IMG/VR virus record: IMGVR_UViG_3300046011_002950
Location: 1-25,400 of that record
Source of the DNA: a virus
DNA: 25,400 nucleotides
Direction: 5' to 3' (one strand)
Shown here: piece after piece, positions 4,250-13,453 of the stretch
How positions within the stretch are numbered: the first letter of the stretch is position 1
Layout of the letters: the number at the start of each line of letters is the position of its first letter
The notes under the pieces: model-generated
Told to the model about the DNA's origin: nothing
The model's database searches: none
What the model saw: only the letters and a program-made list of their open reading frames with translations
Position numbers and translations under genes: made by a program

Positions 4250-4648
4250 CTACTCCTTGGTGATTAGCTCGACCGAAACACTGGCCGATGCAGGTTTGGT
4301 GGTGATGGCTGCTGCCACAAAGGCGTAGTCATCGGGTCGAAATTCTTGGAGCTTGCGAAGCTCAGTGGTGCTGGCTTCTGCTTTCCACTTGAATGCCTTC
4401 TGAGCCTGTTCGCTCATGGCAGACCACATACCAGCGAGCATGTCGGCATCGACACTGCGAGTCATCTTGTAGGTGACCGTAGCCTTGTAGTCTTCAGTGG
4501 TTTCGGTGATGCTGCCTTCGTCTTTCTTTGGCAGCATGGACTGGATCGTCTTGTCCAGGTCGCGGCGGCGCTCAATCGCCTTGCGCTCGTCTTCTTTCGC
4601 CTGCATCCAGACGGAAAGGACTTGCGCCAGAGTTACTGGTGCGTTCAT
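4250..4648 (-). CDS. Charged helical phage protein, first gene of leftward operon
   Basis: 132 residues, function unknown. The N-terminal half is a charged helix (residues 10-45, rich in K/E/R/D, LSVWMQAKEDERKAIERRR), likely a coiled coil. The rest contains alternating beta-prone segments (EDYKATVTYKMTRSV) and a helix (FKWKAEASTTELRKLQEF). Small proteins of this type commonly precede Sak4/DUF669 genes in temperate phages. AAGGA is placed before the ATG at 4648. It is the first gene after the predicted leftward promoter, with a leader of about 210 bases. It ends seven bases before the ATPase gene starts, so both are surely on one transcript. No catalytic motif is visible. Confidence 0.8.
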   Translation of the reverse strand: MNAPVTLAQVLSVWMQAKEDERKAIERRRDLDKTIQSMLPKKDEGSITETTEDYKATVTYKMTRSVDADMLAGMWSAMSEQAQKAFKWKAEASTTELRKLQEFRPDDYAFVAAAITTKPASASVSVELITKE

Positions 4649-4854: not shown

Positions 4855-4871
4855 GTTGAGTGAGACTCTAC
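4855..4871. promoter_or_regulatory. Operator-like dyad OL1
   Basis: GTTGAG-TGAGA-CTCTAC: 6-5-6 architecture with one mismatch in the left arm compared with the perfect dyad GTAGAG-N5-CTCTAC at 5619-5635. It covers the -10 of PL. Proposed binding site of the phage repressor and/or Cro. Confidence 0.6.
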
Positions 4872-4893
4872 TCTCGTTGCGCACCAACGTCAA
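4865..4893 (-). promoter_or_regulatory. Predicted early leftward promoter PL
   Basis: Read on the minus strand, TTGACG (4893-4888) is followed after exactly 17 bases by TAGAGT (4870-4865), a good sigma70 promoter pointing into the leftward recombination operon, with its expected start near 4858. The -10 lies inside the operator-like dyad 4855-4871 and the -35 inside the second dyad 4889-4905, so repressor binding would block both elements. Confidence 0.7.
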
Positions 4894-4905
4894 GCATTAC
4901 TCTAC
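4889..4905. promoter_or_regulatory. Operator-like dyad OL2
   Basis: GTCAAG-CATTA-CTCTAC: the right arm is identical to the consensus half-site and the left arm has two mismatches. The centre lies 34 bases from OL1 and covers the -35 of PL. Spacing of about three helical turns would suit cooperative repressor binding. Confidence 0.5.
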
Positions 4906-4909
4906 ACAA

Positions 4910-4947
4910 TGGGCAATAAAAAGCCGCTGTCGAAGCGGCATTGCCCA
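4910..4947 (-). terminator. Intrinsic terminator for leftward repressor transcripts
   Basis: On the minus strand GCCGCT-TCGAC-AGCGGC (4939-4923) is followed directly by TTTTT (4922-4918), a standard intrinsic terminator. An outer 8-bp pair (TGGGCAAT at 4910-4917 with ATTGCCCA at 4940-4947) encloses it and the U-tract, so two alternative folds exist. It lies downstream of the repressor gene and just upstream of PL, so it separates repressor transcription from the leftward operon. The -35 of the rightward SOS gene falls in the outer arm. Confidence 0.75.
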
Positions 4948-4969
4948 CAATTAAAGTAGGGAGTAATCT
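4941..4969 (+). promoter_or_regulatory. Predicted promoter of the SOS-regulated gene
   Basis: TTGCCC (4941-4946), 17 bases, TAATCT (4964-4969). The expected start point near 4976 falls inside the LexA box. A degenerate operator-like dyad (GTAGGG-AGTA-ATCTAC, 4956-4971) overlaps the -10, so the phage repressor might also act here. The promoter is inferred from spacing and sequence only. Confidence 0.55.
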
Positions 4970-4970
4970 A

Positions 4971-4986
4971 CTGTATGTAAATACAG
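4971..4986. promoter_or_regulatory. LexA (SOS) box
   Basis: CTGTATGTAAATACAG matches the proteobacterial LexA consensus CTGT-N8-ACAG at all eight fixed bases, and its dyad symmetry extends to ACTGTAT-GTAA-ATACAGT (4970-4987). It lies immediately downstream of a predicted -10 and 16 bases before the start of the gene at 5002, the classic position for repression by host LexA and release on DNA damage. Confidence 0.85.
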
Positions 4987-5001
4987 TCGGAGAATAAGAA
5001 G

Positions 5002-5199
5002 ATGAGTAAGTATGTCAAGTTGCAGGAATTGCTTCAGGAAATGATTGATTCAGGAGAGATCGTTGCCATGTCGGCGATCATCACAGGCGCTGATGGCAGT
5101 GCATCAAGTATTGCGGTCAGTGCTTCGCCTTGGTCTGGCTATGTATCCTCAGATAGTGGATTATCTCCGTCTGATCTGACTTGCTCAGTGAGTCAATAA
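5002..5199 (+). CDS. Small LexA-box-controlled protein, candidate SOS antirepressor
   Basis: 65 residues, not recognised by family. The N-terminal helix (SKYVKLQELLQEMIDSGEIVAMSAIIT) is well formed and amphipathic. The rest is Ser/Gly/Ala-rich and soluble, with no membrane segment. GGAG lies nine bases before the ATG. A LexA box and a promoter lie directly upstream, so the gene should be off in the lysogen and induced by DNA damage. Its last 83 bases overlap the 3' end of the repressor gene on the opposite strand, so its transcription also runs antisense through the repressor. As the neighbouring repressor has no self-cleavage domain, a role as antirepressor that links the SOS response to induction is attractive (compare Tum or the Gifsy antirepressors). 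That function is inference. The overlapping C-terminal third may be constrained by the opposing gene. Confidence 0.7.
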   Translation: MSKYVKLQELLQEMIDSGEIVAMSAIITGADGSASSIAVSASPWSGYVSSDSGLSPSDLTCSVSQ

Positions 5200-5524
5200 T
5201 CTTTGCCGCCTCGATGGCAATAGCGCCGAACCTGGGAACCTCATCAATTTGCTTTGCGTTGGGGAACGCAATGATCTCTACGCGATGCTTCCAGTCGCTG
5301 GAGATGTCGGCGCTATCATCAAGCAGCCATTCAATCGGTGCGCCGGTTATCTGACTGATCAGCTTTAAGTTGTCGATCGTCGGCCTGGTGTATTTGTCTG
5401 GGTTGGTCGTTTCCCACATGCTCACCGCTGACTTACTGACGCCGACAAGCTCGCCAAGCTTTTCTTGACTAAGCTTTGCGTGCTGCCGTGCGGCTTTGAT
5501 TCTGTCGCGGATGTGGGAACCCAT
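5117..5524 (-). CDS. Phage repressor, XRE/cI-type HTH without peptidase domain
   Basis: 135 residues. An XRE helix-turn-helix occupies roughly residues 3-66 (RIKAARQHAKLSQEKLGELV, then VSKSAVSMWE as the recognition region and WLLDD at its end). The C-terminal half is short and helical and has no S24/LexA-type serine-lysine self-cleavage domain, so RecA-stimulated autocleavage is not expected. The start at 5524 is chosen because AAAGGA lies eight bases upstream and the HTH begins here. The open frame extends to 5659 but would run through the operators and the start of cro. It is transcribed leftward from the predicted PRM and ends before the terminator at 4918. It would bind the GTAGAG-N5-CTCTAC dyads on both sides. 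Role from position and domain, family confident. Confidence 0.88.
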   Translation of the reverse strand: MGSHIRDRIKAARQHAKLSQEKLGELVGVSKSAVSMWETTNPDKYTRPTIDNLKLISQITGAPIEWLLDDSADISSDWKHRVEIIAFPNAKQIDEVPRFGAIAIEAAKIIDSLSKSDQTEIIHYLRIHSQTKAKH

Positions 5525-5561: not shown

Positions 5562-5578
5562 GTACAGCTTGGCTCTAC
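5562..5578. promoter_or_regulatory. Operator-like dyad OR2 overlapping PRM
   Basis: GTACAG-CTTGG-CTCTAC, one mismatch from a perfect 6-5-6 dyad. It overlaps the -10 of the predicted repressor promoter, so binding here would autoregulate the repressor or let Cro shut it off. Confidence 0.6.
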
Positions 5579-5616: not shown

Positions 5617-5635
5617 TGGTAGAGTAACGCTCTAC
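5617..5635 (+). promoter_or_regulatory. Perfect operator dyad OR1 with extended -10 of PR
   Basis: GTAGAG-TAACG-CTCTAC at 5619-5635 is a perfect inverted repeat. TG-G-TAGAGT (5617-5625) reads as an extended -10 element pointing toward cro at 5658. No good -35 is present, which is usual for extended -10 promoters. Repressor bound here would cover the -10 and the start point. This is the best site from which to derive the operator consensus. Confidence 0.65.
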
Positions 5636-5657: not shown

Positions 5658-5885
5658 ATGGAATCACCTCTTCAAAAAGCTATCGACTTGGCTGGCGGCA
5701 AGATTGCCCTGGCACTGGCGCTTGGCCTTGATCGCACCGCCGTGTATTCGTGGAAAGAGTGTCCGCATGAGCGCGTCCTGCCTGTCTCTGAGCTTGTTGG
5801 CTGGGAAGTTACGCCGCACCAGTTGCGCCCAGACCTGTACCCGAACCCGACTGACGCGCTGCCCCAAGTAAAAGAGGCCGCTTGA
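5658..5885 (+). CDS. Cro-like regulator (YdaS-type HTH)
   Basis: 75 residues. The protein follows the small Cro/YdaS pattern: residues 5-30 hold LQKAIDLAGGKIALALALGL followed by DRTAVYSWK as the recognition helix, then PHERVLPVSELVG and the near-invariant ending TPHQLRPDLYP. It would bind the operators in competition with the repressor and commit the phage to lytic growth. It is divergent from the repressor and the first gene after PR. The Shine-Dalgarno is weak (TTGGAA), with an ATG in another frame at 5650 just before the real start. A one-base gap separates its stop from the next ATG at 5887, so the two are cotranscribed. Confidence 0.85.
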   Translation: MESPLQKAIDLAGGKIALALALGLDRTAVYSWKECPHERVLPVSELVGWEVTPHQLRPDLYPNPTDALPQVKEAA

Positions 5886-6137: not shown

Positions 6138-6178
6138 AACAGCCCCGTCATCGGTGCGCGAACACCTCAAGGGCTGTT
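6138..6178 (+). promoter_or_regulatory. Nested stem-loop in the leader before the primase gene
   Basis: AACAGCCC (6138-6145) pairs with GGGCTGTT (6171-6178), and within the loop GGTG (6153-6156) pairs with CACC (6163-6166). There is no T-run after it, so it is not a standard terminator. The gap 6097-6204 otherwise holds no gene. It may be an attenuator, an RNA-stability hairpin or a protein-binding site before the replication gene. Function is inferred only from structure. Confidence 0.45.
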
Positions 6179-8532: not shown

Positions 8533-8723
8533 GATTGGCGTCTTGGAATCAACCGGCGGACGAACCGCCACCAGTGCGGTATTTTTTCGTCCACAGCATG
8601 GCACTCCCTTTCGGGCGGGCTGTGCGGGAGAGTCTTCGGACTCGCCGGCCCGGTTGCCGGTACGCCAATCCTGCACAGTCTGCCCACCCCGATTGGCGTC
8701 GGGACGGCAGTTTAAAAAACTGC
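8533..8723 (+). ncRNA. C4-type antisense RNA locus (P1/P7/P4 immunity-RNA-like), candidate
   Basis: Dense self-complementarity. GATTGGCGT occurs at 8533-8541 and again at 8691-8699, and both can pair with ACGCCAATC at 8662-8670. GGGCGGGCTGTGCGG (8613-8627) can pair over 15 bases (three G-U) with CTGCACAGTCTGCCC (8671-8685). Local hairpins are GAGTC-TTCG-GACTC (8630-8643), CCGGC/GCCGG (8645-8660), GGCGG/CCGCC (8555-8569) and GCAGTTT-AAA-AAACTGC (8707-8723). Two antisense segments followed by their two targets just ahead of a small ORF is the arrangement of C4 antisense RNAs, which repress a downstream antirepressor or cell-division-inhibitor gene. The overlapping open frame resembles what is often annotated as an 'ash/ICD-like' protein, probably a by-product of conserved RNA. 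Boundaries of the mature RNA cannot be set from sequence (roughly 8600-8670 for the antisense part). Confidence 0.55.
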
Positions 8724-8738
8724 AACCGGAGTACCACC

Positions 8739-8867
8739 ATGAACACCAATCAAATCACCACATCAGTTTCCAAGAAGTGTCCTCCTTGGGCTTCTTACGT
8801 TTCGCCAACCTGCAAGACCATCAAGGTCGGCAACTTGTTCGTTACCGTGCAGAAGGTGGCGAAATGA
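8739..8867 (+). CDS. Small ORF under the C4-like RNA, 42 aa
   Basis: MNTNQITT...WASYVSPTCKTIKVGNLFVTVQKVAK, 42 residues, with GGAG seven bases before the ATG. The protein has a compact beta-prone C-terminal half (CKTIKVGNLFVTVQKV) and no membrane segment. It lies just behind the predicted antisense target and hairpin, so its translation is likely under RNA control. Its stop overlaps the start of the endonuclease gene as ATGA. In P1- and P4-type loci the controlled gene is an antirepressor or a division inhibitor. Here the function is unknown, and the small size fits a regulatory or toxic peptide. Confidence 0.6.
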   Translation: MNTNQITTSVSKKCPPWASYVSPTCKTIKVGNLFVTVQKVAK

Positions 8868-10490: not shown

Positions 10491-10820
10491 ATGGGAACAG
10501 AAAACGACGCAAGTTTTAAAAAAGGCAAAAAACCAGGGCCGGGAAGACCGCCTGGATTGCCCAACAAATCCACGCAAGCAGCGCGTGAGGCTATCGCTTT
10601 GTTTGTCGATGGCAACGCGCATCGCCTGCAGGAATGGCTGGACAGTGTCGCTATCGGCGTGAAGAACGACGATGGTGAGTACGTTGTCGCCCCAAACCCA
10701 GAAAAGGCGTACCAGCTATTCCAGAGCGTGATCGAGTATCACGTACCGAAACTGTCGCGCTCTGACGTGACAGCAACCGTCGCAACGACCACTGTCGAAG
10801 CCCTCAAAGAACTCGGATGA
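10491..10820 (+). CDS. terS: Terminase small subunit-like protein
   Basis: 109 residues. The N-terminus is basic (KKGKKPGPGRPPGLPNKST), a nucleic-acid-binding tail typical of this group of small terminase-like proteins. A helical body follows (AREAIALFVDGNAHRLQEWLDSVA, then PEKAYQLFQSVIEYHVPKLSR). It would recognise the packaging site on phage DNA and hand it to the large subunit. Its stop overlaps the start of the large terminase gene by four bases (ATGA), strong support for the assignment. An AAGG lies rather far (about 13 bases) before the ATG. Confidence 0.8.
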   Translation: MGTENDASFKKGKKPGPGRPPGLPNKSTQAAREAIALFVDGNAHRLQEWLDSVAIGVKNDDGEYVVAPNPEKAYQLFQSVIEYHVPKLSRSDVTATVATTTVEALKELG

Positions 10821-13453
10821 GCGAACTAGCCGAAGCATTGCGTCCGTTCAAGACGGACTTTCTGCATTACGCGCCCCGCGCCTTGAAGATCAGAGCCAAG
10901 TCCGGCGCTATCGAGCCGCTGAACCTGAACACCGCGCAGACGCTGATCCACTCGCATCTTGAGAGGCAGCTGGCGGAAACCGGGAGAATCAGAGCGATCA
11001 TCATCAAAGGCCGGCAGCAGGGCGCTTCGACTTACATCGAGGCGCGTTTCTACTGGCGCACGTCGATGGCTTTCGGCAAGCAGGCTCTGATTCTGACACA
11101 CCTGCAGGACTCAACCGACGCGCTGTTCGACATGACCAAGCGTTACCACGACCTCTGCCCCACTGTGCTGCAGCCAAAGACCTCTGCTGCATCGGCCAAG
11201 GAGTTGAAGTTCTCAGACCTTGACTCAGGCTACATCGTGGCTACTGCCGGATCCAAGGCTGTCGGGCGAGGGCGCACGATCCAGTATTTTCATGGTTGTC
11301 TTGGCCTTGATGTCGATGTCGTCACGGCAAGCGGTTCGTTGATCAAGGTTGGCGACGTTGCTGTTGGTCAAGACCTTGTCACGCACACCGGCAAGATTGC
11401 CAAGGTGTCAGGAATATCGGATCTGGTTAAGCCGGCGTTTGATGTTCGCATGAAGGGCTTGCGCGGCTTCCCGCTTGTTGCGACAGATGAGCATAGGTTC
11501 TGGACGCAAGACGGCTGGAAAGAGTTGCGCGACATACCTGTTGGCGGCGTCATTGGCTACCCGGTCAGGACGATAACACCTGAAATCACCAGCCTACCGT
11601 TCAGGAAACCTGATTCGATTCGCCCACAAGGCGGAGGATCACGCGAGACTGGCCCAGACAGAGTTGATTTAACTTTTGACCTTGGTCGGATTGTCGGTCT
11701 GTATCTCGCCGAAGGCTGTCTGATCAGGCAGGCGAAACCGCCAAAGGCAGCATCGGCCATAACCTTCGGCATCCATGAGCGCGAGGCAGAGCGAACCATT
11801 GAATGGCTTGGGAAGTGCAGCCACCTGTTCAAGTCCGTCAGTCACGCCAAGAGCAAGACATCGAAAACGAATATGGTTACAGCGTATGGCCGCAGCTTCG
11901 CCATGTTCATCGAAGAGTTGGTTGGCAGCAAAGATGGAAAGCGGTTCCCCGCCGAGTGGTGGAAGATGCCACGCGACTTTGTTGAAGGCATCTGCCTTGG
12001 CTACTTGGCCGGCGACGGACACAGCAGCAAGCGTGAGTATGATAGACGAATATCAGTTCCGTCGATTCGGAGCGCGACAATACTTGGATTGCGCGATGCT
12101 CTGGCCAGCCTTGGCTACGGCTGGGCAACCGTCACAAGCCGTGAGGCCGCAGTCCGCAGCGGAAGGAACGAAAAGAAGCAATGGACGCTGCGTCTCTCAG
12201 GGCAAGGCGTTGATGATCTTTGCAAGAAGCTGGGATGGACGATGCCAGAGCGCCGCAGGTTTGGAAGCTATGGTGATGTTAAGATTTCCGATGGATACGC
12301 TTGGATACCAGTCGTTTCCAAAGAGCCAGTCGGTAGCGTTCAGGTTAGAGACTTTGAGATTGATGACGACGACCACTCGTACTGCGTAATTCATGGTGGC
12401 AGTCACAACAGCGAGTTCGCGTTTTGGGCTAATGCCGAGGATCACATGGCTGGCCTGGGTCAAGCGGTGCCGGATCTCGATGGCACTGAAGTCATCATGG
12501 AGACAACCGCCAACGGTGTCGGCAACCTGTGCCACAAGATGAGCATGGCCGCGCTGAAGGGCATCGGTGACTATCGCCTGATCTTCGTGCCGTGGTTCCT
12601 GCAGGAAGAGTACCGCAGCACCGCCCCGTCTGACTTTGTCTTGGTCGGCGAGGAAAAAGACTACGCCGAGACGTTCAAGCTGGACAATGACCAGATGATG
12701 TGGCGCAGGCGGAAGATCCAGGATGATTTCCGTGGCGACGTGGCTTTGTTCGATCAGGAATACCCCGCAACTGTTCACCTTGCGTTCAGGCGCGTCTCCG
12801 GCAATCCTTTGATAGATCCGGCTAAGGTTGCCCTCGCAAGGCTCCCAGAGCGCTGTAATATCGATCCTACGGGCAATCGCATTATGGGCGTCGATCCGGC
12901 TGAGTACGGCGATGACGCTACCGCGATCGTCATGCGTCAAGGCCGAAAGGTCGATACCGTTATCCGCTACTACAAGCGCGGCCCGATGGAAGTGGCCGGC
13001 CTGGTGGCTGTTGAGGCGGATCGCTGGAAGCCTGACGCGATTAACGTCGATTGCACAGGCGTCGGATCGGGTGTTGCTGACCGACTGATTGAGCTTGGTT
13101 ACCCGGTCAATCGCGTGCATTTCGGTGAGCGTGCGATCCAGAACGACATCTATGGCCTGCGCCGCGACGAGATGTGGGGCGAAATGAAGCGATGGCTTGA
13201 GGATCAGCCCAACAGTTTGCCAGACGACGACTCGCTTGAGGCCGACCTGACTGCCCCGCAATACACCTATGACTCATCCCGCAGGCTGAAGCTTGAGAGC
13301 AAGGAGGTGATGAAGCGGCGCGGCATCAACTCGCCAGACTCAGCGGACGCCCTGGCGCTAACCTTTGCGATGCCTTTCTCTTCGACATCCGGCAAGGCTT
13401 CAAGCTTCAAAGAACAACGCTCAACCGCAAAACGCGACTGGAGATCCGCTTAA
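10817..13453 (+). CDS. terL: Terminase large subunit precursor containing an intein
   Basis: DNA-packaging motor, 878 residues as translated. The extein begins with an ATPase domain: deviant Walker A IKGRQQGAST near 63-72 and the conserved GRGRTIQYFHG before the insertion. It resumes with SEFAFWANAEDH, QAVPDLDGTEVIMETTANG and the nuclease domain (MGVDPAEYGDDATA near 690, VDCTGVGSG, and SPDSADALALTFA at the end), which holds the acidic metal ligands for cutting the concatemer. Residues 161-531 are an intein. After splicing, HG joins SEFAFW and the mature protein is about 507 residues, the normal size for the family. It overlaps terS upstream (ATGA) and the FmdB-like gene downstream (TAATG). 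Confidence 0.93.
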   Translation: MSELAEALRPFKTDFLHYAPRALKIRAKSGAIEPLNLNTAQTLIHSHLERQLAETGRIRAIIIKGRQQGASTYIEARFYWRTSMAFGKQALILTHLQDSTDALFDMTKRYHDLCPTVLQPKTSAASAKELKFSDLDSGYIVATAGSKAVGRGRTIQYFHGCLGLDVDVVTASGSLIKVGDVAVGQDLVTHTGKIAKVSGISDLVKPAFDVRMKGLRGFPLVATDEHRFWTQDGWKELRDIPVGGVIGYPVRTITPEITSLPFRKPDSIRPQGGGSRETGPDRVDLTFDLGRIVGLYLAEGCLIRQAKPPKAASAITFGIHEREAERTIEWLGKCSHLFKSVSHAKSKTSKTNMVTAYGRSFAMFIEELVGSKDGKRFPAEWWKMPRDFVEGICLGYLAGDGHSSKREYDRRISVPSIRSATILGLRDALASLGYGWATVTSREAAVRSGRNEKKQWTLRLSGQGVDDLCKKLGWTMPERRRFGSYGDVKISDGYAWIPVVSKEPVGSVQVRDFEIDDDDHSYCVIHGGSHNSEFAFWANAEDHMAGLGQAVPDLDGTEVIMETTANGVGNLCHKMSMAALKGIGDYRLIFVPWFLQEEYRSTAPSDFVLVGEEKDYAETFKLDNDQMMWRRRKIQDDFRGDVALFDQEYPATVHLAFRRVSGNPLIDPAKVALARLPERCNIDPTGNRIMGVDPAEYGDDATAIVMRQGRKVDTVIRYYKRGPMEVAGLVAVEADRWKPDAINVDCTGVGSGVADRLIELGYPVNRVHFGERAIQNDIYGLRRDEMWGEMKRWLEDQPNSLPDDDSLEADLTAPQYTYDSSRRLKLESKEVMKRRGINSPDSADALALTFAMPFSSTSGKASSFKEQRSTAKRDWRSA
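11297..12409 (+). mobile_element. LAGLIDADG intein within TerL, 371 aa
   Basis: The insert begins with Cys1 (CLGLDVDVVTASG, block A) right after QYFHG, carries the block-B type ATDEHRFWT (T..H), and ends DDDHSYCVIHGGSHN followed by Ser+1, the usual His-Asn/Ser splice junction. Two LAGLIDADG-type helices are visible, IVGLYLAEGC near residues 292-301 and LGYLAGDGH near 394-402, with acidic E and D, so an encoded homing endonuclease is likely and possibly active. All residues needed for class 1 splicing appear present. The insertion site lies in one of the most conserved ATPase motifs, typical of homing into invariant codons. Confidence 0.92.

Follow-up and report, generated by a model that had tools for sequence, protein, structure and literature searches.

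The immunity region of an incomplete phage genome carries a 65-codon open reading frame directly behind a consensus LexA box, and this reading frame runs head-on into the gene for a repressor that lacks an S24 self-cleavage domain. We propose that its product is probably an SOS-induced antirepressor, by analogy with those of Gifsy, SPC32H, 186 and N15. As such it would represent a known trick in an unusual position, since the gene lies within the immunity region and runs antisense to the repressor, its presumed target.

Organization of the immunity region

The window analyzed here comprises 25,400 bases of IMG/VR virus record IMGVR_UViG_3300046011_002950, and DNA comparison with the phage collection revealed no near relative. 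The segment from about 4.6 to 6.2 kb is a classical immunity region of a temperate phage. A leftward operon starts at 4648 on the minus strand and encodes a DUF7173 protein, Sak4, a 162-aa protein, a nuclease and a helicase. The prophage repressor gene (5117–5524, minus strand, with an AAGGA ribosome-binding site) is accompanied by a plus-strand Cro-like gene of the YdaS family (5658–5885; PF15943, 5.7e-13; phrog_35), 3′ of which an RHH protein and then a primase-helicase are encoded rightward.

The repressor is 135 aa long, matches HTH_3 (2.5e-12) and also resembles P22 C2-like N-terminal domains. Pfam and PHROG scans identified no S24 family in it, which distinguishes it from lambda-type CI and confirms the first-pass annotation; as proposed there, it is predicted to be unable to cleave itself. 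No homologues of the repressor were found in phages, or in IMG/VR and genome contigs by pattern-based searches, and plasmids yielded distant HTH matches only.

Four putative operators with the motif GTAGAG-N5-CTCTAC form PL and PR pairs flanking the region, one pair over PL and the other around PR. OR1 (GTAGAGTAACGCTCTAC, 5619–5635) is a 12/12 palindrome over the PR −10 element, and the other three copies match 10 or 11 of the 12 positions: OR2 (GTACAGCTTGGCTCTAC, 5562–5578), OL2 (GTCAAGCATTACTCTAC, 4889–4905, over the PL −35 element) and OL1 (GTTGAGTGAGACTCTAC, 4855–4871, over the PL −10 element). The PL-like promoter itself (TTGACG-N17-TAGAGT, 4865–4893, minus strand, ranked third) would serve the leftward recombination operon. 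When the two intergenic regions were shuffled, the mean number of such operators was 0.011, and at least three occurred in 0 of 5,000 shuffles. The 65-aa reading frame is situated between the OL and OR operators and thus inside the immunity region. A possible weak repressor site (GTAGGGAGTAATCTAC, 4956–4971) abuts the LexA box; it matches at 10 of 12 positions with a spacer one base short, and has a 0.6% shuffle chance for the region at that spacing. This is suggestive only, but the repressor may be placed on the promoter of the small gene too.

A LexA box precedes a small gene facing the repressor

The predicted LexA box (TACTGTATGTAAATACAGTC, 4969–4988, plus strand) contains an exact match to the core CTGTATGTAAATACAG at 4971–4986 and ends 13 bp before the ATG at 5002. 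On a matrix built from 14 E. coli LexA sites it reaches 25.4 bits, although the LexA of the host may differ in specificity. This is the sole strong site in the window, where the runner-up reaches 7.7 bits, and the maximum over 60 shuffled windows was 17.5. By itself, the CTGT-N8-ACAG core is no rarity, with two exact occurrences in 25.4 kb against about 0.4 expected from simple base counts; the second of these, at 6174 and 5′ of the primase gene, was dismissed at 7.7 bits. We also rejected the box as an operator of the phage's own repressor, as the repressor operators show a different motif. Positive controls on the same matrix scored 26.2 bits for SPC32H ant, 25.3 for Gifsy-2 dinI-gftA, and, in N15, 22.7 before a 79-aa reading frame that we take to be AntC and 25.3 before a UmuD-like gene. 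Boxes at proven LexA-controlled antirepressor loci therefore span 22.7–26.2 bits, compared to 25.4 in the window. As sequence the predicted box is real, in agreement with the consensus LexA box described earlier.

The reading frame behind it (5002–5199, plus strand) was taken from the ORF list and has a GGAG ribosome-binding site (4989–4992, plus strand) 9 nt before the ATG. The chance of an ATG reading frame of at least 60 codons with a Shine-Dalgarno sequence within 40 nt of the box is 1.2% in local shuffles, or 2.7% when the repressor part is kept, and the earlier call of a small gene with a good ribosome-binding site is upheld at a chance of about 1–3%. Its last part overlaps the 3′ end of the repressor gene in antisense over 5117–5199, the 83 bases originally reported. 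Codons 1–39 have a phage-like codon score of +9 bits and the 26 codons sharing bases with the repressor score −12, giving a total of −3; because this signal is mixed, the reading frame is likely, rather than proven, to be coding.

The 65-aa protein had been said to belong to no recognizable family, and neither tblastn against phages nor searches of Pfam, PHROG and PDB identified a homologue. There was also no relative in IMG/VR or genome contigs, which is weak evidence, since the pattern-based searches used there catch close relatives only. Homologues beside other S24-less repressors, a check suggested in the first-pass annotation, were not found in the collections searched. Structure prediction of the protein by itself, also suggested earlier, returned a helix followed by three strands (AlphaFold without alignment), although with a pLDDT of 53 this is no confident fold and is too weak to use; such single-chain, low-confidence models were left out of the fold search. 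A by-eye resemblance to GftA (phrog_4847) was rejected as not significant, with no PHROG match and an alignment p of 0.45, or 0.21 with softer gaps. The SPC32H Ant (phrog_450) likewise gave no PHROG match, with an alignment p of 0.11.

Comparison with known antirepressors

In the Gifsy phages of Salmonella, the repressors are short and uncleaved and are bound and removed from DNA by small proteins under LexA control, and a frameshift in Gifsy-2 proved the protein to be the inducer (PMC3121763). The GftA, GfoA and GfhA systems share with the window a short S24-less HTH repressor, a small protein and a LexA box of equal quality. Gifsy LexA boxes also come after a terminator-like palindrome (PMC3121763), and one is present 5′ of the box in the window. 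However, the Gifsy antirepressor gene belongs to a dinI-antirepressor-irsA operon that lies away from the immunity region (PMC3121763), whereas the window gene stands alone, inside that region and antisense to the repressor. A location outside the immunity region is common to the published LexA-controlled antirepressors, although not strictly defining.

The SPC32H repressor is reportedly not cleaved. The SPC32H Ant (KC911856) is similarly a small protein with a LexA box directly upstream (26.2 bits), but its gene lies about 14 kb away from rep, the repressor is 198 aa long, and the proteins are unrelated. Two further LexA-controlled antirepressors, Tum (phage 186) and AntC (N15), are cited in PMC3121763. 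Tum differs from the window protein in being 146 aa long with a DinI-like half, and in N15 the box precedes the 79-aa reading frame about 5 kb from the repressor.

Precedents for small orphan antirepressors that have no homologues come from the TF-smORF modules of Vibrio and Aeromonas phages (PMC10432266), and antirepressors without homologues are also documented in PMC11323111. The TF-smORF genes are activated by a phage transcription factor independently of SOS and adjoin that factor rather than lying antisense to cI (PMC10432266), unlike the window gene, which is antisense to its repressor.

Mutually antisense transcripts

The predicted small-gene transcript runs antisense through the final 83 bases of the repressor gene, and the terminator scan detected a weak terminator-like hairpin where the small gene ends (5177–5195, plus strand). 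In the opposite direction, the only minus-strand terminator found 3′ of the repressor is a hairpin with its stem at 4939–4923 and a TTTTT tail (4910–4947; z −5.2). This lies beyond the small gene, so the 3′ part of the repressor mRNA would be complementary to the entire small gene.

The OOP RNA of lambda is a LexA-controlled 77-nt non-coding RNA that pairs with the 3′ end of cII. The window is similar in that a LexA-controlled transcript would cover the 3′ end of a regulator gene in antisense, although OOP is non-coding and acts against cII rather than the repressor, whereas the window has a reading frame with a ribosome-binding site. The reading frame could nonetheless be incidental, with the plus-strand transcript acting as an OOP-like RNA that pairs with the repressor mRNA at its 3′ end or collides with its transcription. 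The 83-bp overlap and the fully antisense repressor 3′UTR are consistent with this, as are the weak terminator at the end of the reading frame, which would yield a short RNA, and the overall neutral codon signal. We consider such a mechanism unlikely, however, as a stable repressor would outlast its own mRNA, the ribosome-binding site is good and codons 1–39 are coding-like, and the Gifsy-2 frameshift pointed to the protein as the inducer (PMC3121763).

Relatives and a second locus with the same layout

By its late genes and RHH protein, the closest relative of the window is locus L049 (portal 63%, TerL 67%, MCP 72%, RHH 62%). The repressor that it encodes in the same place, beside the same RHH gene, is 215 aa long and includes a Peptidase_S24 domain (PF00717, 3e-26), and no LexA box above 15 bits was found in L049. 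The two genomes thus display an apparent natural swap of an S24 repressor for a LexA box. Among the 41 loci that encode a related Cro, 8 of 27 S24-less repressors but 0 of 14 S24 repressors are accompanied by a strong LexA box (Fisher p 0.023; the loci are not independent and their flanks are limited). The lack of an S24 domain does not imply LexA control, since a relative with a short S24-less repressor, L002, has no LexA box in its record.

When IMG/VR was scanned for strict LexA boxes, 141 were recovered in 140 loci. One of these loci, L239 (IMGVR_UViG_3300050156_000163), is a viral contig of 4.2 kb unrelated to the window. Its LexA box lies 196 bp past the 3′ end of an S24-less HTH repressor, and a 62-aa reading frame overlaps the repressor 3′ end in antisense by 60 bp, the same combination of LexA box and small antisense reading frame as in the window, although the proteins are unrelated. 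In L239, the small protein shows a resemblance to the C-terminal helices of the repressor it faces (p 0.002, in one of five comparisons), which hints at hetero-oligomerization of the two. L239 is only a lead because, in contrast to the window gene, its reading frame has no clear Shine-Dalgarno sequence. Loci L065 and L075, in which a LexA box past the repressor 3′ end sits within a DUF6932 gene, were not counted as a second example. In both, this 29-bit box is at 5224, beside a short S24-less repressor, and DUF6932 also adjoins the L002 repressor.

These loci bear on whether the 65-aa protein might be LexA-controlled and yet have some other role, such as SOS modulation, defense or that of a moron, with inactivation of the repressor taking place elsewhere, such as through a factor whose gene lies beyond the 25.4-kb fragment. 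Some phages have LexA-controlled repressor neighbors without a known antirepressor role; precedents are the same-strand genes 117–120 bp past the S24 repressors of L105, L124 and L184. The contig is also incomplete, and it carries a C4 antisense RNA like the regulator of the P1 antirepressor. An accessory role is nevertheless even less likely than an OOP-like RNA, given that the LexA box is the only one in the window, that the three precedents involve self-cleaving repressors and same-strand genes, and that S24 and LexA control are exchanged relative to L049.

Promoters at the LexA box

The small gene had been credited with its own promoter. There is a plausible candidate on the plus strand (TTGCCC-N17-TAATCT, 4941–4969) that overlaps the LexA box, but it is weak, ranking 11 of 50,728 positions, and it is equalled in 13% of local shuffles, not being rare in such AT-rich DNA. 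The stronger promoter points leftwards. This is the window's best consensus promoter (TTGACA-N16-TATTCT, 4991–5018, minus strand; rank 1, local-shuffle p 0.008), and its start lies inside the LexA box. LexA bound at 4969–4988 would cover both the leftward and the rightward start points, so the leftward promoter is a rival LexA target, and a LexA-controlled promoter could fire leftwards. RNA from it would end after about 60 nt at the 4939–4923 terminator. No reading frame precedes that terminator, no convincing pairing with phage gene starts supported a regulatory role for this RNA, and there was no Rfam match for either it or the OOP-type antisense transcript. That the LexA box serves this promoter, yielding the 60-nt RNA with the facing reading frame arising by chance, is the least probable of the explanations considered, as for all the strength of the promoter, the RNA has neither reading frame nor recognizable target and a ribosome-binding site followed by 65 open codons on the opposite side would be a coincidence.

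A model for prophage induction

Under the antirepressor interpretation, we infer that host LexA would occupy the promoter of the 65-aa gene, head-on to the repressor 3′ end. DNA damage would lead to LexA cleavage and translation of the 65-aa protein, which would bind the repressor and free OL and OR, so that PL and PR fire. There is probably a second layer, in which the 3′ part of the repressor mRNA would, in the lysogen, capture any small-gene mRNA that leaks through, and the SOS-induced small-gene transcript would anneal to the repressor mRNA and collide with repressor transcription.

An SOS antirepressor switch was the central proposal of the first-pass annotation, and it is partly supported. 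There is good support for a small gene under SOS control opposite a repressor without S24. The antirepressor role is supported indirectly, by the quality of the box and its match to proven loci, the absence of S24 from the repressor, the four operators, the L049 swap, the distribution of boxes over the 41 Cro loci, the Gifsy-type Cro and repressor context and L239; counting against it are the lack of a homologue, the pLDDT of 53, the lack of significant similarity to GftA or the SPC32H Ant, the neutral overall codon signal, the weak plus-strand promoter with its stronger leftward rival, and L002.

A bolder version is possible, if doubtful: a self-contained convergent toggle, in which a LexA-triggered orphan antirepressor and its repressor lie head-on with mutually antisense mRNAs and a protein-protein step, in a layout that would have arisen more than once (in the window and L239) and that would be a swappable SOS sensor in place of the S24 domain. 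If this holds, temperate phages would sense SOS through a swappable cassette with two forms: either the repressor carries an S24 tail, or a tail-less repressor is paired with a LexA box and a tiny gene on the strand opposite to it. The overlap would then tie SOS induction to lysogenic silence through RNA in addition to protein, and LexA boxes facing the 3′ ends of short repressors would provide a rule for finding unannotated antirepressors.

Other features of the surveyed loci and the window

Several surveyed loci show LexA boxes in other arrangements. In L102, L140, L170, L192 and L232, short S24-less HTH genes (137–147 aa) begin 4–20 bp after a strict LexA box, and they are apparently LexA-controlled HTH regulators. 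In L105, L124, L184, L194, L179 and L169, a LexA box lies 102–120 bp past an S24 repressor; where read in detail, these boxes precede a same-strand gene of 82–104 aa (phrog_2707 in L124), which they presumably drive. L008 (Fels-1) has a 25-bit LexA-like box at 5796, within the annotated repressor gene.

Elsewhere in the window, a C4 antisense RNA (RF01695) is present at 8608–8690 on the plus strand, scoring 66 bits against a gathering threshold of 45. RNA of this type controls the antirepressor in P1 and P7. Here it precedes a 42-aa reading frame (about 8739–8867), an HNH-like reading frame and a VRR-NUC-like gene, among which no ant gene was recognized. The large terminase reading frame (10817–13453, plus strand) has an apparent intein-like insert at residues ∼158–525, which begins with CLGLDVDVVTASG and ends with HGGSHN before SEF.
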